DNA of 42,265 nucleotides from Janthinobacterium sp. GW458P (GTDB lineage: Bacteria; Pseudomonadota; Gammaproteobacteria; Burkholderiales; Burkholderiaceae_D). Positions 7,584-36,422 of this stretch are shown piece by piece (positions within the stretch are counted from its first letter, which is position 1; each line of letters starts with the position of its first letter). The DNA lies in NCBI RefSeq assembly GCF_002127585.1, contig NZ_NEGZ01000049.1, positions 1 through 42,265 of the forward strand, read 5' to 3'. Both the position numbers and the translations under genes were made by a program. The notes below the pieces were generated by a model. The model was not told the origin of the DNA. It saw only the letters and a program-made list of their open reading frames with translations, and ran no database searches.

Positions 7584-7763
7584 GATGACTCCTAATACAT
7601 AAGTTCTAAAATTTTAGCACATTCGATTAGCAAATACATGCGAATCGAGTATCCCAGCGGCAAAGACTACCCGAAAACAGTCCGTACCGACATCGTTTGT
7701 TACAATTACATTTCACTACACTTGCCATACTCGATTACTACACGCGTTTGACACGTTCTTTAC
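7584..7763 (-). promoter_or_regulatory. AT-rich spacer upstream of rpmF, likely carrying its promoter
   Basis: This is the non-repeat part of the gap between yceD and rpmF. It is clearly more AT-rich than its surroundings. On the minus strand it contains TTGCTA followed by GCTAAAAT close to rpmF, but the spacing between them is too short for a standard promoter. I infer a promoter somewhere here because a palindromic element separates rpmF from yceD. No exact start site can be claimed. Confidence 0.35.
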
Positions 7764-7883
7764 AGGAAGCATAAAAAACCTGCTGCGCTTCCCGCTATCG
7801 CCTCGGCGGCGCTCAGTACATTCGTACGCTTGCGCTACTCAAGACGATATCGGGCCGCTCGCTACGGTTTTTTAAGGCTTCCT
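7764..7883. repeat. palindromic intergenic element, copy 1
   Basis: The outer arms AGGAAGC-A-TAAAAAACC (7764-7780) and GGTTTTTTAAGGCTTCCT (7866-7883) are complementary over almost their full length. Inside lies TGCTGCGC, a central GTAC-attc-GTAC hairpin, a TTGCGCT box and CCGCTCGCTACGG. The same core occurs near 11.8, 18.1 and 20.8 kb. The right arm ends about 12 bases from the yceD stop codon, so in this copy the adjoining gene is on the minus strand. The element interrupts the usual yceD-rpmF junction. Confidence 0.8.
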
Positions 7884-7895
7884 TTCTTACACTAC

Positions 7896-11346: not shown

Positions 11347-11775
11347 ATGCACAGCCTGACCCTCACGACCGATAACCGCGCCGATGTCGCGGCAGCCCTG
11401 GCCGGGCCCCGCTGGACCGTGGCCTGCCTGTGCGCGCTGTGGTGCGGCACCTGCGGCAGCTACCGCGCCACGTTCGAGGAACTGGCCGCGCGCCACCCGG
11501 ACACGCTGTTCGTCTGGATCGACATCGAAGACCAGGCCGACGTGGTGGGCGACCTCGACATCGACAACTTCCCCACCCTGCTGATCCAGCGCGACGACAA
11601 CGTGGCCTTCTTCGGCACCGTGCTGCCCGACGGCGGCCTGGCGCACCGCATGGTGCAGGCGCAGCAGGCGCTCAGCGGGGCCGAACTGGCGGCGCAGGCC
11701 GCCAGCACGCAGGAACGGCGCGACTGGCAGCGCGACTGCAATCTGCGCAACCTGCTGGCCGCCACCCTGGCCTAG
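11347..11775 (+). CDS. thioredoxin-fold protein with CGTC active site
   Basis: This 142-residue cytosolic-looking protein has the redox motif WCGTC (Trp32, Cys33, Cys36) and the cis-proline in NFPTLLIQ. The beta-strand VWIDIEDQADVVGDLDI lies between them, in thioredoxin order. The dipeptide between the cysteines is Gly-Thr rather than Gly-Pro, which usually changes the redox potential. No signal peptide is seen. A C-terminal extension of about 45 residues is charged and helical. Its TAG stop overlaps the left arm of a palindromic repeat. A TAGAAT box lies about 40 bases upstream, but no convincing -35 was found. Substrates are unknown. Confidence 0.88.
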   Translation: MHSLTLTTDNRADVAAALAGPRWTVACLCALWCGTCGSYRATFEELAARHPDTLFVWIDIEDQADVVGDLDIDNFPTLLIQRDDNVAFFGTVLPDGGLAHRMVQAQQALSGAELAAQAASTQERRDWQRDCNLRNLLAATLA

Positions 11776-11911
11776 AACACCCGACAAAACCTACTGCGCG
11801 TCGCGGGTCGCGGCCTCCGATGCTCACTGACTCGGCGCTCCCGTGCATCCGCACAGCTCCGCTTCTCAGCCACAACTCACTGCCGCTCGCTACGGTTTTG
11901 TTAGGTGTTCT
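11774..11911. repeat. palindromic intergenic element, copy 2
   Basis: The arms AGAACACCCGACAAAACC (11774-11791) and GGTTTTGTTAGGTGTTCT (11894-11911) are complementary at 16 of 18 positions. The core has CTACTGCGCG, a GATGCTCA box, a central GTGC-atcc-GCAC hairpin, CGCTTCTCAGCCACAA and CCGCTCGCTACGG. The left arm overlaps the thioredoxin stop codon by two bases. The right arm ends 9 bases before the stop of the convergent oxidoreductase gene, so the element fills the entire gap. Confidence 0.85.
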
Positions 11912-11920
11912 TAATAAACT

Positions 11921-17591: not shown

Positions 17592-18098
17592 ATGACCTTC
17601 TCCATCTATTCCGCATCGATCCCCGTCTTCAAACAGATCCTGGGCAGCCTGGCCGCCATCCTCGACAAGGCGGAAACCCACGCGCAAGACAAGAAAATCG
17701 ACCCGAACGCCCTGCTGCAGTTCCGTTTGTTCCCGGACATGCTGCCCTTCGTGCGCCAGATCCAGATCGCCACCGACTTCGCCAAGGGCTGCGGCGCGCG
17801 CCTGGCCGGCGTTGCCGTGCCGCCATATGAAGACAGCGAACAGAGCTTTGCAGAACTGAAGGCGCGCATCGTGAAAACCATCGCCTTCCTGGAAAGCCTG
17901 CCGCAAGCGGACATCGACGGCAGCGAAACGCGCGCCATCACCACCGGCAGCGGCGAAAAGACCAAGCACTTCACGGGCCAGACCTATCTGTTCCACTACG
18001 CGCTGCCGCACTTCTTCTTCCACGCGACGACGGCGTATGACATCCTGCGCCACAATGGCATTGAAGTGGGCAAGAAAGACTTTATCGGCAGTTACTGA
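17592..18098 (+). CDS. DUF1993 family protein
   Basis: This 168-residue soluble protein begins MTFSIYSASIPVFKQILGSL. It contains LFPDMLPFVRQIQIATDFAKG, the typical DUF1993 stretch, and a C-terminal FHYALPHFFFHATTAYDILR region with histidines that resembles DinB-like four-helix bundles. The family function is not known to me. A strong ribosome site (AGAGGAA) sets the start, and TATCAT about 15 bases further upstream could be a -10 box. The remaining 250 bases upstream show no other gene. Its stop codon is followed within two bases by a palindromic repeat. Confidence 0.9.
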   Translation: MTFSIYSASIPVFKQILGSLAAILDKAETHAQDKKIDPNALLQFRLFPDMLPFVRQIQIATDFAKGCGARLAGVAVPPYEDSEQSFAELKARIVKTIAFLESLPQADIDGSETRAITTGSGEKTKHFTGQTYLFHYALPHFFFHATTAYDILRHNGIEVGKKDFIGSY

Positions 18099-18099
18099 A

Positions 18100-18217
18100 A
18101 CGCATAGGCAAATCTACTGCGCGGCGCGCTTTGCGGCCTGCGATGCTCGCCGTACTTGAGTACGGCTGCGCTTCTTAGCCACAAATCATCGCCGCTCGCT
18201 ACGATTTGCTTAAGCGT
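18100..18217. repeat. palindromic intergenic element, copy 3
   Basis: The arms ACGCATAGGCAAATC (18100-18114) and GATTTGCTTAAGCGT (18203-18217) are complementary apart from two mismatches. The core has TACTGCGCGG, GGCCTGCGATGCTCG, a central CCGTACT-tg-AGTACGG hairpin, TGCGCTTCTTAGCCACAA and CCGCTCGCTACG. The inner arm bases AATC/GATT replace AACC/GGTT of the other copies on both sides at once. It lies in the convergent gap between the DUF1993 and DUF1289 genes. Confidence 0.85.
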
Positions 18218-18251
18218 CGACGCAATAGGGGGATACTGCTCTATTGCGTCG
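18218..18251. terminator. perfect 11-bp inverted repeat after the DUF1289 gene
   Basis: CGACGCAATAG (18218-18228) and CTATTGCGTCG (18241-18251) form a perfect stem with a 12-base loop, three bases beyond the DUF1289 stop. There is no T tract on either side. It could be an RNA 3'-end stabiliser, or an additional arm of the adjoining palindromic element. It is labelled a terminator only tentatively. Confidence 0.45.
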
Positions 18252-19024: not shown

Positions 19025-19361
19025 TGATGCTCTCTATCGGTAACATGGCCGGCGCGCGAATGGCCGGCCCAAAGCCAAATTGTACGCACTCTTTGCGCAG
19101 TCTCATACCCGGCGTGCGCCAGCCTTGCGCCAGAGACGGCGCCATGTATGCTATAACAGCGGCCGAAACACGCATTGGGCAAATTAAATTTGCAATAATG
19201 ACAGCATCAGCGCGGGGAAACTCAGCCGTTTCTGATCTATTGCCGCTTATTTCCTGTCATCATGCTGACATAATTCTTGACTCCGGCATGTGGATATACG
19301 TACACTCGCTGCTTGATCATGGGTCTGTCCGATGTTTCTCCGACGACAACAATGGAACACT
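19025..19361. promoter_or_regulatory. divergent intergenic region with an AT-rich palindrome
   Basis: This 337-base gap separates the DUF1415 gene from the transglycosylase gene and must hold promoters for both. A perfect palindrome GCAAATTAAATTTGC (19179-19193) stands in an AT-rich patch and is a candidate operator. An adjacent AATAAT could be a -10 box for the rightward gene, but no matching -35 was found. Nothing resembling a gene was seen in the gap. Confidence 0.4.
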
Positions 19362-20774
19362 ATGCACGAAAACTCCTTTAAATCTACCGTCCTGGCGGCG
19401 TTGGCCCTGGCGCTCGCGCCCGCCCTCAGCCAGGCGTACGAAGCCGGTGTTGAGAGCGATAACGCGCCAGTCGCCGCCACAGCACCTGCCCTGATCCCGA
19501 TGGCCGCCCAGGTCACGGCGAAACTCCCCACCCTCGACAACCGCCTGCAAAAGACCGACCGCCTGCTGAAAAACCTCAGCGACAGTTCCGATCCGCTGCG
19601 CGAAGCCGACGTCTGGGGCCGCATCCGCAGCGGCTATGCGATTCCCGACATTAACAACCAGCTCGTCACCAACCACGTCAACTGGTACGCCACCCGCCCC
19701 GACTACATCGCCCGCACCACGGCGCGCGCCTCGCGCTACATCTTCCACGTGGTGCAGGAACTGGAAAAGCGCGGCATGCCGACGGAACTGGCCTTGCTGC
19801 CCTTCATCGAGTCCGCCTTCAACCCGCAGGCGTTCTCCAGCGCCAATGCGGCCGGCATGTGGCAATTCGTGCCCGCCACGGGGCGCGATTTCAACCTCAA
19901 GCAAAACATGTTCAAGGACGAGCGCCGCGGCGTGCTGGCCTCGACCGATGCGGCCCTGACCTATCTGCAGCGCCTGTATGACATGTTTGGCGACTGGCAA
20001 CTGGCCCTGGCCGCCTACAACTGGGGCGAAGGCTCGGTACAGCGCGCCATCAAGAAAAACCAGGCGCTGGGCAAGCCGACCGACTTTGAAAGCCTGGCCG
20101 ACCTGATGCCGGCCGAAACGCGCAATTACGTGCCAAAATTGCAAGCCGTCAAGAACATCATCGCCAATCCGGCGCAGTTCGGCCTGACCCTGCCCGTGGT
20201 CGACAACCAGCCCTACTTCACGGCCATCGACAAGACCAGCGACATCGACATCACGGTCGCCGCCCAGCTGGCCGAGCTGTCGATGGATGAATTCAAGGCC
20301 CTGAACCCGCAATTCAACCGCCCTGTCATCATCGGCGGCGAAAAGACCAAGATTCTGTTGCCGCAGGAAAACGCCGCCAAGTTCACCACCAACCTAGCGC
20401 AATGGGGCCATGCCTTGTCGAGCTGGACCACGCACAAGATCACCAACGCGCGCGAACGCATCGAAACCCTGGCGTCGAAATTCGGCACCACGCCCGACGT
20501 GCTGCGCCAGGCGAACAACATTCCGCAGCGCACCAGCCTGCGCGCCGGCTCCACCATCCTCGTGCCGAAGACTTCGGCCACGATGAACAAGGACATCACC
20601 CAGGAAATCGCCGACAGCGCCACCATGCTGCTGGAAGCGGACCGTCCGGAACGGGCCGCCAAGGCGTTGCGCCGCGCCGCCAAGGGCGGCAAGGCGCAAA
20701 CGGCGCCAATTTCCCTGGTGAAGCCGCGCATCCAGCGCGGCGGCGGCAACAACCGGGCAAAAGCGCGCCATTGA
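19362..20774 (+). CDS. mltD: membrane-bound lytic transglycosylase D-like protein with LysM domains
   Basis: MltD cleaves peptidoglycan glycan strands to anhydro products in the periplasm. The chosen ATG gives a signal peptide (STVLAALALALAPALSQA). The transglycosylase domain follows, with the catalytic Glu in LLPFIESAFNPQAFS, then AAGMWQFVPATGRDFNL and LAAYNWGEGSVQRAI. The C-terminal third has two LysM-like regions, the clearer one being IETLASKFGTTPDVLRQANN and the rest of that repeat. A basic tail (KGGKAQTA...NNRAKARH) ends the protein. No lipobox is seen, unlike E. coli MltD. An earlier ATG at 19332 would bury the signal peptide. A palindromic repeat starts two bases after the stop. Confidence 0.93.
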   Translation: MHENSFKSTVLAALALALAPALSQAYEAGVESDNAPVAATAPALIPMAAQVTAKLPTLDNRLQKTDRLLKNLSDSSDPLREADVWGRIRSGYAIPDINNQLVTNHVNWYATRPDYIARTTARASRYIFHVVQELEKRGMPTELALLPFIESAFNPQAFSSANAAGMWQFVPATGRDFNLKQNMFKDERRGVLASTDAALTYLQRLYDMFGDWQLALAAYNWGEGSVQRAIKKNQALGKPTDFESLADLMPAETRNYVPKLQAVKNIIANPAQFGLTLPVVDNQPYFTAIDKTSDIDITVAAQLAELSMDEFKALNPQFNRPVIIGGEKTKILLPQENAAKFTTNLAQWGHALSSWTTHKITNARERIETLASKFGTTPDVLRQANNIPQRTSLRAGSTILVPKTSATMNKDITQEIADSATMLLEADRPERAAKALRRAAKGGKAQTAPISLVKPRIQRGGGNNRAKARH

Positions 20775-20776
20775 GT

Positions 20777-20909
20777 ACACCTGACATAAGCTACTGCGCG
20801 TCGTGATTTGCAGCCTGCGATGCTCACCGTACTAAAAGTACGGTTGCGCTTCTCAGGCCAACGGGGGCGCCGAGCCTCACTTCCGCTCGCTACGGTTCTG
20901 TCAGGCGTT
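20777..20909. repeat. palindromic intergenic element, copy 4
   Basis: The arms ACACCTGACATAAGC (20777-20791) and GGTTCTGTCAGGCGTT (20894-20909) share the complementary CCTGACA/TGTCAGG block with a few mismatches. The core has CTACTGCGCGTCG, GCCTGCGATGCTCA, a central CCGTACT-aaa-AGTACGG hairpin, TTGCGCTTCTCAG and CCGCTCGCTACGG. It begins two bases after the transglycosylase stop. A second TTAGGCGTT copy follows directly, so the right arm is partly duplicated. Confidence 0.85.
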
Positions 20910-21013
20910 GTTAGGCGTTGCAAACCACCCGACATCTGATTTCCACCGGCCGCCACAGCTTTGCTGTCGCGGCCGGTTGCACATCCGACCTACCCACCCA
21001 GACAGGAGTCATC

Positions 21014-26837: not shown

Positions 26838-26921
26838 GAAGTCGCTTAGGTCTGGCCATGAGCACCTGCCCACAGGACTCAGGCAAGACTTCCAGACTCA
26901 CTCAACCACGAGGTGAACAAA

Positions 26922-27902
26922 ATGAAATTTTCTAAACTGAAACTGCTCCCGGCCGCGGCGGCACTGGCCATGCTGTGCGCCGCCGGTAGCGCACAGGCGG
27001 GCGCCTACGGCTATTCCTACAACAACATCTTCGGCCTGCAGATCGCCGCCGCCACGGGCTCCATCACCGCCCTGAACAGCACCACGATCTCGCGCGCCAC
27101 GGCCACCCTGAATGGCGTGAGCGTCATCAATGGCGGTCCCGGCCTGCTCGACTCGCCCCGCGCCGCCGTCGGCGCCGTCACCAAAGGGGAAAACAATTTC
27201 ACGCAACAAGGCCCCACGGGCAACTACTCGCGCGGCGACGCGCAGATCGTCAGCACGCAGTTCCCCTCGTTTCCGCCCGGCTCCACCTCCACGCAGGCCG
27301 TGAACGTGGCCGAAGCCCACCTGGACGACCCTGCCGGCACTGCCGACGCCTCCGGCCGCAACGGCTCGACCACGGGCTTCTCGGTCAACTTCGTCGTCGG
27401 TTCGCCAACGGCAACGCTGAGCTTTGACTTCTTCTCGTCGCCATTCATGCAAGTCTTCCTGCAAAGCACGGTGGGCCAGCTGTCCACGGCGACAGCCAAC
27501 CTGGTGGTGACCTTCACCATCACGGACTCGACCGGCGCGACCGTCTTCAACTGGACCCCCGATGGCGTCATCGGTTCCGGCATCTTCGGCGGCACGGAAT
27601 CGGCCGACGCGGCCAACCTGAACACCAGCCTGGCGACCAACTTCCTGACGCGCGGCAACCTGTTCACGTATGACCCCACCGGCTGCGGCACGCCTGGCGG
27701 CACGGGAGTGGGCACGGCTTGCGGCGGCAACTTCAGCGCCGTCAGCAATGCCCTGGCGGCCGGCAACTACACCCTGACCTTGAATGCCGTGGAAAGCGTG
27801 GACCTGGTGAAGCAAGCTGCGCCCGAGCCCGGCACCCTGGCCCTGCTGGGCCTGGGCCTGGCAGGCCTGGGCTACGCCAGCCGCCGGAAGATCGCAGCCT
27901 GA
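26922..27902 (+). CDS. PEP-CTERM sorting-domain exported protein
   Basis: This 326-residue exported protein has a signal peptide (LKLLPAAAALAMLCAAGSAQA) and starts its mature part AYGYSYNNIFGLQI. A Ser/Thr/Asn/Gly-rich beta-type body carries two cysteines flanking a glycine loop (PTGCG...GTACGG). It ends with PEPGTLALLGLGLAGLGYAS and RRKIAA: a PEP motif, hydrophobic helix and basic tail. This is the PEP-CTERM signal processed by exosortase at the cell surface, often in exopolysaccharide producers. The ribosome site GAGGTGA fixes the ATG. A paralogue follows, with a terminator in between. Confidence 0.9.
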   Translation: MKFSKLKLLPAAAALAMLCAAGSAQAGAYGYSYNNIFGLQIAAATGSITALNSTTISRATATLNGVSVINGGPGLLDSPRAAVGAVTKGENNFTQQGPTGNYSRGDAQIVSTQFPSFPPGSTSTQAVNVAEAHLDDPAGTADASGRNGSTTGFSVNFVVGSPTATLSFDFFSSPFMQVFLQSTVGQLSTATANLVVTFTITDSTGATVFNWTPDGVIGSGIFGGTESADAANLNTSLATNFLTRGNLFTYDPTGCGTPGGTGVGTACGGNFSAVSNALAAGNYTLTLNAVESVDLVKQAAPEPGTLALLGLGLAGLGYASRRKIAA

Positions 27903-27926
27903 ACCATGTAACCGGGGGGCATTCAC

Positions 27927-27955
27927 AGGCGAGGGAAGTCTCCTCGCCTTTTTTA
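27927..27955 (+). terminator. rho-independent terminator after the PEP-CTERM gene
   Basis: AGGCGAGG (27927-27934) pairs with CCTCGCCT (27942-27949) around a 7-base loop and is followed by a run of T. It would end the first PEP-CTERM message before its paralogue. Confidence 0.9.
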
Positions 27956-28008
27956 TGCCGCGCACTGTCGGCTTTCCTTACAACGTACGCCAGCACATGA
28001 GGATTTTC

Positions 28009-29070
28009 ATGATGACTTTTTTCTGTACACGGCTGCCGGCGGCCGTGCTGACCCTGCTCTTGCTAGGAAGCAGCGGCGCTGCCAGGGCGACGGCGTACGG
28101 CTATTCGTATATCAACGCCTATGGCCTGACCATCAGCAACCCCAGCGGCTCCATCAGCCTGGTCAGCAATATCGACTTGTCGCGCACCACGGCCAGCCTC
28201 AATGGCAGCGGCGTGATACGGGGCGGCAGCAACGAAATCGATGCGCCGCAGGCGGCGCGCGGCGCCGTCAGCAAGGGCCAGAACGATTTTACGCAGCAAG
28301 GCATGGGCAATGCCTCGTACGCGCGCGGCGACGCGCAAATCATCAGCTCGCAGATTCCCCCCTTCCCGCCCGGCTCGACCAGCACGCATACGGTGAATGC
28401 GGCGGAAGCCTTCCTGACTGGCGCCGGCACCGCCGATGCATCGGGGCGCAACGGTTCCAGCACCGCCCTGGCCATCAACATCGTTGTCGGCGAGCCCGGC
28501 GCGACCCTCGCGTTCAATTTCCAGGCCCAGCCCTACATGCAGCTGTTTCTGGACGCCCAGGCCGGCCTGGGCTCGTCCGCCAGCGCGAACGTGGGGCTGA
28601 CCTTTACCCTCATCGATGAAAATGGCCAGGTCGCCTTCAACTGGGCGCCCGACGGCACGCTCGGCTCCGGCATACTGGGCGGCACCGAACTGGCCGACAG
28701 CGCCAACCTGAATACCGGCTACGCGCAGAGCCCGCTCACCAGCGGCAGCCTGTTCACCTACGATCCCACCGGCTGCGGCGCCCCCACGGGCACGGGCAGC
28801 GGCACCGATTGCGGCGGCCTGTTCAGCGCCGTCACCGACAACCTGGCGGCTGGCAGCTACACGCTGGTCTTGAACATGATCAACAGCACTGAACTGGCCT
28901 ACGTGCCGTCGAGCACGCCCATGCCGTCGCCAGGCACGCTGGCCCTGATGGCGGCGGGATGCGCCGCGCTGGCCAGCATGCGGCCAAGATGGCGCGCGCC
29001 ATGGCGTCAAGCCGGGCCATCGCCAGACGCCCTATTCGCCCGGGCCCGAGGCCACGATCAGATCCCGTAG
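28009..29070 (+). CDS. exported paralogue with degraded PEP-CTERM-like end
   Basis: This 353-residue paralogue of the preceding gene shares AYGYSY at the mature start, GDAQIISSQIPPFPPGSTST, GTADASGRNGSS and FTYDPTGCG, with the same cysteine pair. The signal peptide is clear (LPAAVLTLLLLGSSGAARA). The C-terminal signal is altered: MPSPGTLALMAAGCAALAS has PSP where the partner has PEP. The protein then continues for about 30 residues past the basic RPRWRAPWR, ending inside the opposite gene. The start ATG has AGGA 5 bases before it. Its sorting may be lost or handled by a variant exosortase. Confidence 0.85.
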   Translation: MMTFFCTRLPAAVLTLLLLGSSGAARATAYGYSYINAYGLTISNPSGSISLVSNIDLSRTTASLNGSGVIRGGSNEIDAPQAARGAVSKGQNDFTQQGMGNASYARGDAQIISSQIPPFPPGSTSTHTVNAAEAFLTGAGTADASGRNGSSTALAINIVVGEPGATLAFNFQAQPYMQLFLDAQAGLGSSASANVGLTFTLIDENGQVAFNWAPDGTLGSGILGGTELADSANLNTGYAQSPLTSGSLFTYDPTGCGAPTGTGSGTDCGGLFSAVTDNLAAGSYTLVLNMINSTELAYVPSSTPMPSPGTLALMAAGCAALASMRPRWRAPWRQAGPSPDALFARARGHDQIP

Positions 29071-35992: not shown

Positions 35993-36180
35993 GTATTCTC
36001 AACGGTAAAATTCAGTAGGCATACCTTACACTGAAATTCTGTTTCCGCCATTAAAAACAGCTTAGGGAAAACTGCTTTCCCCAGGCAACTTTGCCGAAGA
36101 ACAAACTCAACAGTGCCCTGCCAGGTTTTTTCAATTGTGCTAAAGTATTGCCGCCGGTCATGTGGACCGGCACAACAATA
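35993..36180. promoter_or_regulatory. divergent promoter region between M16 gene and riboswitch
   Basis: This stretch must hold promoters for the leftward protease and the rightward ribB leader. A possible rightward -10 region is CTAAAGTAT (about 36140-36148). A hairpin CCGGTC-atgtg-GACCGG (36154-36170) lies immediately before the aptamer and would be transcribed with it. No gene is seen in it. Confidence 0.4.
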
Positions 36181-36325
36181 CGTCTTCGGGGCGGGGTGCG
36201 ATTCCCCACCGGCGGTAAGACCGGCAACGGTCAAGCCCGCGAGCGCTTTCCAGGCACCGCTTGGCGAGGTCAGCAGATCCGGTGTGATTCCGGGGCCGAC
36301 GGTATAGTCCGGATGAAAGAAGATG
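36181..36325 (+). ncRNA. FMN riboswitch (RFN element)
   Basis: The conserved parts occur in order: TCTTCGGGGCGGGGTGCGA, ATTCCCCACCGGCGGTA, AAGCCCGCGAGCGC, GGTCAGCAGATCCGGTG, ATTCCGGGGCCGACGGTA and TAGTCCGGATGAAAGAAG. Helix P1 pairs the GTCTTC start with the GAAGA end. It lies about 97 bases before ribB. FMN binding would reduce ribB expression. No T-tract terminator lies between aptamer and gene, so control is probably of translation initiation through the GAGGAG site. Confidence 0.97.
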
Positions 36326-36422
36326 TGCAGTAGTGTGATGTCCCGTCGCCACGGCGATGCGGCCAGTTGCGTCTATTCGCTTGCCCTGCAGCGTTTTTCG
36401 CCTATGCGAGGAGCGTTTCACC

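Follow-up and report, generated by a model that had tools for sequence, protein, structure and literature searches.

A hairpin-forming repeat with covarying arms, candidate MITE-like element of Janthinobacterium and related genera

In Janthinobacterium sp. GW458P, the window (i.e., the whole stretch of DNA that was analysed, 42,265 nucleotides in length) contains palindromic elements whose outer arms differ from copy to copy while staying self-complementary. The question that this locus raises is how the two arms of a copy come to match. A preliminary description of this DNA offered two answers: (i) selection on pairing; and (ii) the one it favoured, insertion of the element into the loop of an older stem, such as a terminator. 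The reading preferred here, with a probability of about 0.6, is that the element is a non-autonomous, MITE-like transposon which folds over its whole length into one imperfect hairpin. The arms, for their part, appear to belong to the repeat and to come and go with its core.

Plan, copies and spread of the repeat

The repeat measures about 120-140 bases and folds, in its entirety, as one imperfect hairpin. It has a fixed plan, in which an end (15 paired bases plus one) is followed by a core (CTRCTGCGC ... CGCTCGCKACG, whose inner stem has mismatches and whose tip covaries) and by a second end. In the window, the covariance model R1 matches four copies, all of them on the forward strand. E1 (7764-7882; ends 7764-7779 and 7867-7882) is a diverged copy (R1 match 7760-7887, 56.7 bits) flanked by TAC and TTT, so that TNA, the target motif considered below, is absent from the expected places. 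E2 (11775-11910; 109.2 bits), the element of the preliminary description, consists of a left end (11775-11790), a core (11791-11894) and a right end (11895-11910). At its left TNA position stands CTA (11772-11774), overlapping the TAG stop codon (11773-11775) of ORF 11347-11775, and at its right one TTA (11911-11913), an assignment based also on the enrichment of TNA at offset 16. E3 (18098-18219; 122.4 bits; ends 18098-18113 and 18204-18219) overlaps a TGA stop codon (18096-18098) and is flanked by CTG and ACG, without TNA. Finally, E4 (20775-20910; 84.6 bits; ends 20775-20790 and 20895-20910) has at its left TNA position TGA (20772-20774), which is the stop codon of ORF 19332-20774, and at its right one TTA (20911-20913); it also carries an additional inner stretch (20861-20876) whose partner is missing.

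The arm pairs reported at the outset, varying between copies yet self-complementary, are present in the sequence and belong to these four related palindromes. The range to which they had been assigned, 11774-11911, holds one element, E2, while the remaining pairs lie in E1, E3 and E4. The pairing is imperfect, with a bulge in E1 and one G.T plus one C.A in E2. Regarding the features of intrinsic terminators, a GC-rich stem is there and a regular T run after the right arm was not seen by eye. Rfam 15 returned no match to the element at gathering score in the window, and nothing reached that score in nine relative loci searched at E up to 1. The sole Rfam match in the window is an FMN riboswitch (36178-36328, forward strand, 120 bits). 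In another part of the window (26913-29070), two related ORFs lie side by side, with direct repeats about 1090 bases apart.

In the home genome, 144 of the best 150 scored matches to R1 were matches to the element; nine of them are opposite-strand repeats of places already listed, which leaves at least 135 places. Another genome, G174, has 59 matches. The element was detected in 106 of the 195 sampled genomes of the family group, corresponding to 32 of 44 genera, and, of 273 other genomes from the class, 12 gave matches that were weaker and longer. A 37-base core pattern retrieved 83 stretches from a named collection (where the home genome may be omitted), and all 80 among the matches listed were from Janthinobacterium. 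One 166-base query matched nothing in a plasmid collection; in IMG/VR, two contigs (L378, L379) carry the core motif as searched with one exact core pattern. In the open literature, no title or abstract beginning was found that describes this repeat. Copies can also be clustered in tandem, three at G000:C139:12644-13224 and two at G000:C91:73691-73947. At L242:1467-1853 (+), a reading frame passes through the element into fis, and the repeat is therefore open in one frame of that strand.

Arm covariation between copies and within sites

The covariation test on many genomic copies that the preliminary description had called for came out in favour of its claim: 22 of 41 pairs changed on both sides, and none of 500 shuffles was as high. 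In an ungapped alignment of 46 Janthinobacterium copies, 91.8% of cells pair, versus a shuffled mean of 83.3%, and 178 cells changed on both sides, versus a shuffled mean of 54; no shuffle of 500 reached the observed values, in a test which takes no account of relatedness. When the partner columns are slid by 1-3 positions, pairing falls to 33-44%. The central hairpin, likewise said to covary, does so (column 61-68 is GC in 26 copies and AT in 20; column 58-71 is CG in 23, TA in 22 and TG in one). In a second genus (G174 and G059, 40 copies), where the arms are nearly copy-specific and still paired, there were 231 two-sided cells versus 72.5 in shuffles, and the count of further pair types was reached by two of 500 shuffles, in an alignment which was fitted to the model and thus leans towards structure. 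Among 31 copies from other genera inspected by eye, the outer arms and the middle stems share little sequence from copy to copy, and CTACTGCGCG, TGCGATGCTC, the GTAC tip, TGCGCTTCTC and CGCTCGCTACG are mostly kept.

The arms have a definite length. From offset 15 to offset 16 outside the core, Watson-Crick pairing drops from 57 to 30 of the 82 Janthinobacterium sites, from 28 to 10 of the 40 copies of the second genus, and from 18 to 11 of the 23 usable copies (out of 24 chosen) of a third set. By eye, the Janthinobacterium arms follow a common consensus, and in L248, L074 and L039 the paired length shifts on both arms together.

In order to separate change in place from differences between sites, 163 elements, chosen by the core pattern with at most two substitutions, were reduced to 156 by taking out exact duplicates; five more, which were wrong motif pairings or a doubtful copy, were left out. 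Because of this selection, decayed copies are under-represented. Grouping by flanks gave 82 sites, 27 of which had two or more alleles. When one pair was taken from each of 25 orthologous Janthinobacterium sites, 79 arm columns had changed on one side and seven on both, where independence predicts 9.0. Pairs from different sites had, on average, 33% two-sided columns, and none of 2000 draws was as low as the 8% of the orthologues; in matching these draws for divergence, on average 17.1 of the 25 pairs could be matched, the unmatched ones having mostly small differences. Counts binned by divergence, whose pairs are not independent, are unaffected by this incomplete matching: up to 0.15, one-sided to two-sided columns were 159:9 in orthologues (7.4 expected) and 395:102 between different sites (35.6 expected); from 0.15 to 0.35, they were 244:33 (39.7 expected) and 4041:2951 (1345 expected), respectively. 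Settled copies therefore decay, and copies at different sites diverge with their arms still matched. At equal divergence, orthologous copies do not behave here like non-orthologous ones, and even strong covariation among dispersed copies is not in itself a sign that RNA pairing is selected in place.

Over longer times, matched arm change in place occurs too. Between dusB and fis, where the same insertion is present in four species (L380, L381, L383 and L384), the six pairs sum to 18 one-sided and 20 two-sided columns (single pairs: L380-L384 1:6, L383-L384 0:5, L380-L381 4:1); with the addition of L382, whose register is shifted, the count is 37:43. Three orthologous G174-G059 pairs gave 8:11, a fourth (L254-L413) having been left out as its flanks matched only left to right.

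The matching of the arms could also be mutational and free of selection, if template switching during replication (quasipalindrome correction) homogenised them. Template switching is described as a process that creates stems and fixes them (PMC8794818), and also as one by which arms are homogenised and spacers inverted (PMC8604942). The symmetric Watson-Crick exchange and the paired indels agree with it, as do, by eye, a seemingly inverted core remnant in L155 and an inner stretch that copies the left module in L013, L015 and E4. Nevertheless, the Y.Y mismatches of the core persist, and the one-sided changes of the Janthinobacterium orthologues remain uncorrected; as the whole explanation, template switching is possible but doubtful. 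The inner stretch itself, ACGGGGGCGCCGAGCC (20861-20876 in the window), is complementary to the left module found in other copies and is unpaired in E4; it resembles an arm copy made by template switching.

The other alternative, considered rather unlikely, is that the folded strand (RNA after a stop codon, or single-stranded DNA) is selected where it sits, with compensatory change, the repeat being kept because it is useful, for instance at mRNA 3' ends. Several strand-specific features speak for it. The core has recurrent Y.Y mismatches (T.C, C.T, C.C and T.T), seen as R.R when the opposite strand is read; the mismatch at arm offset 5 is Y.Y in 36 of 82, 23 of 40 and 7 of 23 copies of the three sets, and R.R in four, none and none; and in two inner columns the wobble is strand-specific, with 34 G.T versus one A.C. 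These mismatches speak for a single strand that is folded at some stage. The arms are different: A.C exceeds G.T there by 84 to 37 (21 of the A.C cells being in one inherited column), and therefore G.U is not tolerated on that strand as it would be in RNA, nor was ordinary RNA covariation by G.U steps seen. The position of stop codons is likewise a point in its favour: at the 82 Janthinobacterium sites, a gene runs towards the left arm in 47, and in 32 of these the stop codon ends between -2 and +6 of the start of the 17-bp arm, versus 1 of 32 on the right. This contact is weak in G174 and G059 (left 4 of 23, right 0 of 19). Moreover, each copy at E2-E5 is absent from most relatives. In short, selection on pairing, as first suggested for this locus, finds support in the Y.Y mismatches, the strand-specific core wobble and the matched change at older sites (dusB-fis, G174-G059), but not in the short-term change of the arms, which proceeds one side at a time, two-sided change not being in excess among the Janthinobacterium orthologues.

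Target sites, mobilisation and comparison with known systems

A three-base TNA target duplication is clear in distant relatives; in Janthinobacterium TNA is enriched, but the duplication itself is weak. In the distant relatives (G252, G398 and G360, with 171 pattern matches among them), 35 loci yielded 17 copies that are complete and distinct; 16 of these have identical 3-bp flanks, 15 of which are TNA, where re-pairing of the flanks predicts 6.1; the outer eight bases of the two ends are unlike in 7 of the 17. At the 82 Janthinobacterium sites, TNA stands at offset 16 in 23 on the left and 25 on the right, versus a background of 4-6%. It is on both sides in nine (7.0 expected), seven of them with identical triplets; with flexible ends, TNA/TNA occurs in 14 of 82, which is not significant (re-paired mean 9.0, maximum 17). 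In G174 and G059, TNA at offset 16 is found on the right in 16 of 40 copies and on the left in eight, not sharper than at offset 15 (nine). A scan for duplications of 2-9 bp gave, in Janthinobacterium, excesses mainly of 2-3 bp, with a single one of 4 bp; several of them lay at offsets 15-17. In G174 and G059, the excesses were nearly all of 2 bp and scattered. At the dusB-fis site of another genus, the empty sequence CCTGGTTAAATG corresponds, by eye, to CCTG-TTA-GGGGTGG...CCACCG-TTA in L381, in which the TTA of the empty alleles is doubled. TNA targets can explain the contact with stop codons; the orientation bias towards the left side in Janthinobacterium, which they leave unexplained, may reflect selection.

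With these data, the MITE-like reading may be put as follows. An enzyme acting in trans would move the element into TNA sites, which include the stop codons TGA and TAA, and duplication of the target would preserve these stops. The arms would be the terminal inverted repeats of the element, different between lineages and copies. Their agreement inside one copy would arise because a unit whose ends do not match neither moves nor persists; now and then, template switching might also restore one arm from its partner. Once settled, copies would decay, mostly a single arm at a time.

The element is short, geneless and repeated (about 120-140 bp, at least 135 places), has terminal inverted repeats (15 paired bases in three sets), and its target duplication is seen in G252, G398 and G360 (16 of 17), with TNA enrichment in Janthinobacterium. 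Bacterial MITEs such as RUP, Correia/NEMIS and ERIC/RU-1 are described as geneless, intergenic sequences below 200 bp with terminal inverted repeats, target duplication and a long stem-loop (PMC2229807, PMC10969869). The element resembles them in all these traits, but its core is preserved among many genera, both as a sequence and as a structure, and its terminal repeats vary; moreover, it uses TNA and not TA, and a donor insertion sequence was not found.

Insertion sequences of the IS1031 group, in the IS5 family, produce a 3-bp TNA duplication. The element shares this duplication, but it has no transposase inside and none was found nearby. Partner-end searches covered the DDE_Tnp_1 and Y1_Tnp families, and no autonomous relative with the same ends was found among the loci of these families that were tested. 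With the DDE_Tnp_1 profile, an arm was found in none of 30 loci examined in G398, G252 and G360 (45 matches); the profile matched nothing in either G004 or G013, and G000 gave a single weak fragment. Of 11 further DDE_Tnp_1 loci, eight were searched, and four of these had only single loose arm-like matches, that of L431 falling within a probable transposase reading frame, and their best inverted pairs were unlike the arms. In G079, a search for the same arm gave 10 matches, i.e., the six ends of three element copies and four single loose ones; a backwards control also gave six.

The evidence that weakens the MITE-like reading is that: (i) no mobilising gene was found in the searched loci; (ii) the duplication is not significant in Janthinobacterium, E1 and E3 lack TNA, and 7 of 17 copies have unlike outer ends; (iii) the arms are more variable than is usual for ends read by one enzyme; and (iv) matched change in place occurs at dusB-fis and in G174-G059. 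A tentative version of the mechanism would accommodate such variable arms. In it, the enzyme would recognise the conserved, mismatched core of the folded strand and make its cuts at the hairpin base, a fixed 16 nt beyond the core in either direction. Any sequence would then do for the ends as long as they pair, which amounts to a structure-guided transposition with sequence-free ends. The machine that recognises the core and measures 16 nt is an inference. If true, sequence-free ends would explain how one core can occur across genera and families with unrelated terminal repeats, and a widespread repeat for which no Rfam match was found would separate the sequence needs of movement from its structure needs.

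The plan of the element is, thus, MITE-like, and its covariation between copies resembles that of REPINs, mobile hairpin-forming units of fixed length in which compensatory changes between copies are reported as common (PMC3116915). That the element is itself a REP or REPIN moved by a RAYT tyrosine transposase is very improbable, despite its palindromic form, many copies, compensatory changes and the GTAG in its complement, since the right-hand core motif was found in none of 17 Y1_Tnp loci (from seven of nine genomes; 2.4-3.4 kb each) and the two GTAG copies are direct, not inverted. Furthermore, REPINs have conserved ends and a variable middle, while the element is the reverse, with no RAYT near it in the loci tested and with a TNA duplication in its relatives. 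GTAG-tagged REPs share with the element that their ends often provide a stop codon to flanking ORFs, but they are units of 20-40 bp, and Janthinobacterium, Burkholderia, Herminiimonas and Herbaspirillum are not named in the text that describes them (PMC3733652). As a separate candidate, an integron attC site was rejected. Sites of this class have conserved RYYYAAC/GTTRRRY ends and occur in cassette arrays; the arms of other genera lack these motifs by eye, and the copies are dispersed.

Core-less alleles and older hairpins

Relatives that lack the core at a given site bear on whether the arms were there before it. Presence or absence at six sites, with core-less alleles free of arms, supports the MITE-like reading. 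At the E2 site, where 17 of the 20 relatives looked at have both flanks, 15 of the 17 lack the core, the best arm match being 7-9 of 16, as in shuffled sequence. The core is absent in 16 of 17 at E4 (best match 9-12, the 12 being possibly a remnant; L148 appears to be one), in 16 of 19 at E3 (L155 alone reaching 14) and in 8 of 12 at E5, a site found in relatives (9-10). At E1, whose alleles were compared in 30 genomes of the genus, it is absent in 17 of 29, with L136 and L138 at 13-14 and part of the core retained. At dusB-fis, a loose pattern scored 12 of 29 alleles as filled and 17 as core-less (7-10), and inspection by eye gives more empties, with the element at the insertion point in five of 30 (L380-L384); L392 has another copy, located further along. 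The preliminary description had proposed asking whether empty sites are simple hairpins with the same arms: of the 89 core-less alleles, only three hold an arm at 13 of 16 or better, and all three retain core fragments. As core-less alleles are without arms, the arms arrive together with the core.

Insertion of the core into the loops of pre-existing hairpins or terminators is, consequently, most improbable: arms-only hairpins at E1 (L127, L129), a short one at E3 (L155) and the wholly different arms of some copies might suggest it, but the length of the arms is fixed (pairing stops at offset 15/16 in three sets), their consensus is common, core-less sites are arm-free but for the three with core remnants, the target duplication falls outside the arms, and at E5 the native terminator is unbroken beside the element.

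This terminator is intact in the carriers checked (L144, L148, L152, L158 and L161) and present in non-carriers too; the idea that the element replaced it was dropped, as it also stands in carriers. L127 and L129, with no core, have the arms of other alleles (L124-L126). All the short hairpins in which the arms are present and the core is reduced or missing (L127, L129, L136, L138 and L155) are read as probable internal deletions, the tree of the E1 locus being too mixed to polarise them. Two E1 alleles, L121 and L123, have left and right arms of different types, and recombination can therefore unmatch arms. Wholly different arms between conserved flanks occur at two sites, pstB-phoU and the TTAATATGC site, which probably means that the element was replaced, or that a second one inserted at the same place.

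Other hairpins were observed at the same sites. At E1, five genomes (L128, L132, L133, L134 and L137) carry a small unrelated hairpin, GGGGAAAACCCC. At E3, the core-less L162 has a different copy in the opposite orientation, and other species (L146, L148, L152, L154 and L159-L161) have a second palindromic repeat with GGGGTCAGACCC/GGGTCTGACCCC ends. The latter palindrome was also found at L172:1178-1206, about 300 bases from a match to Y1_Tnp (RAYT-type), and is possibly a REP family with its own transposase.
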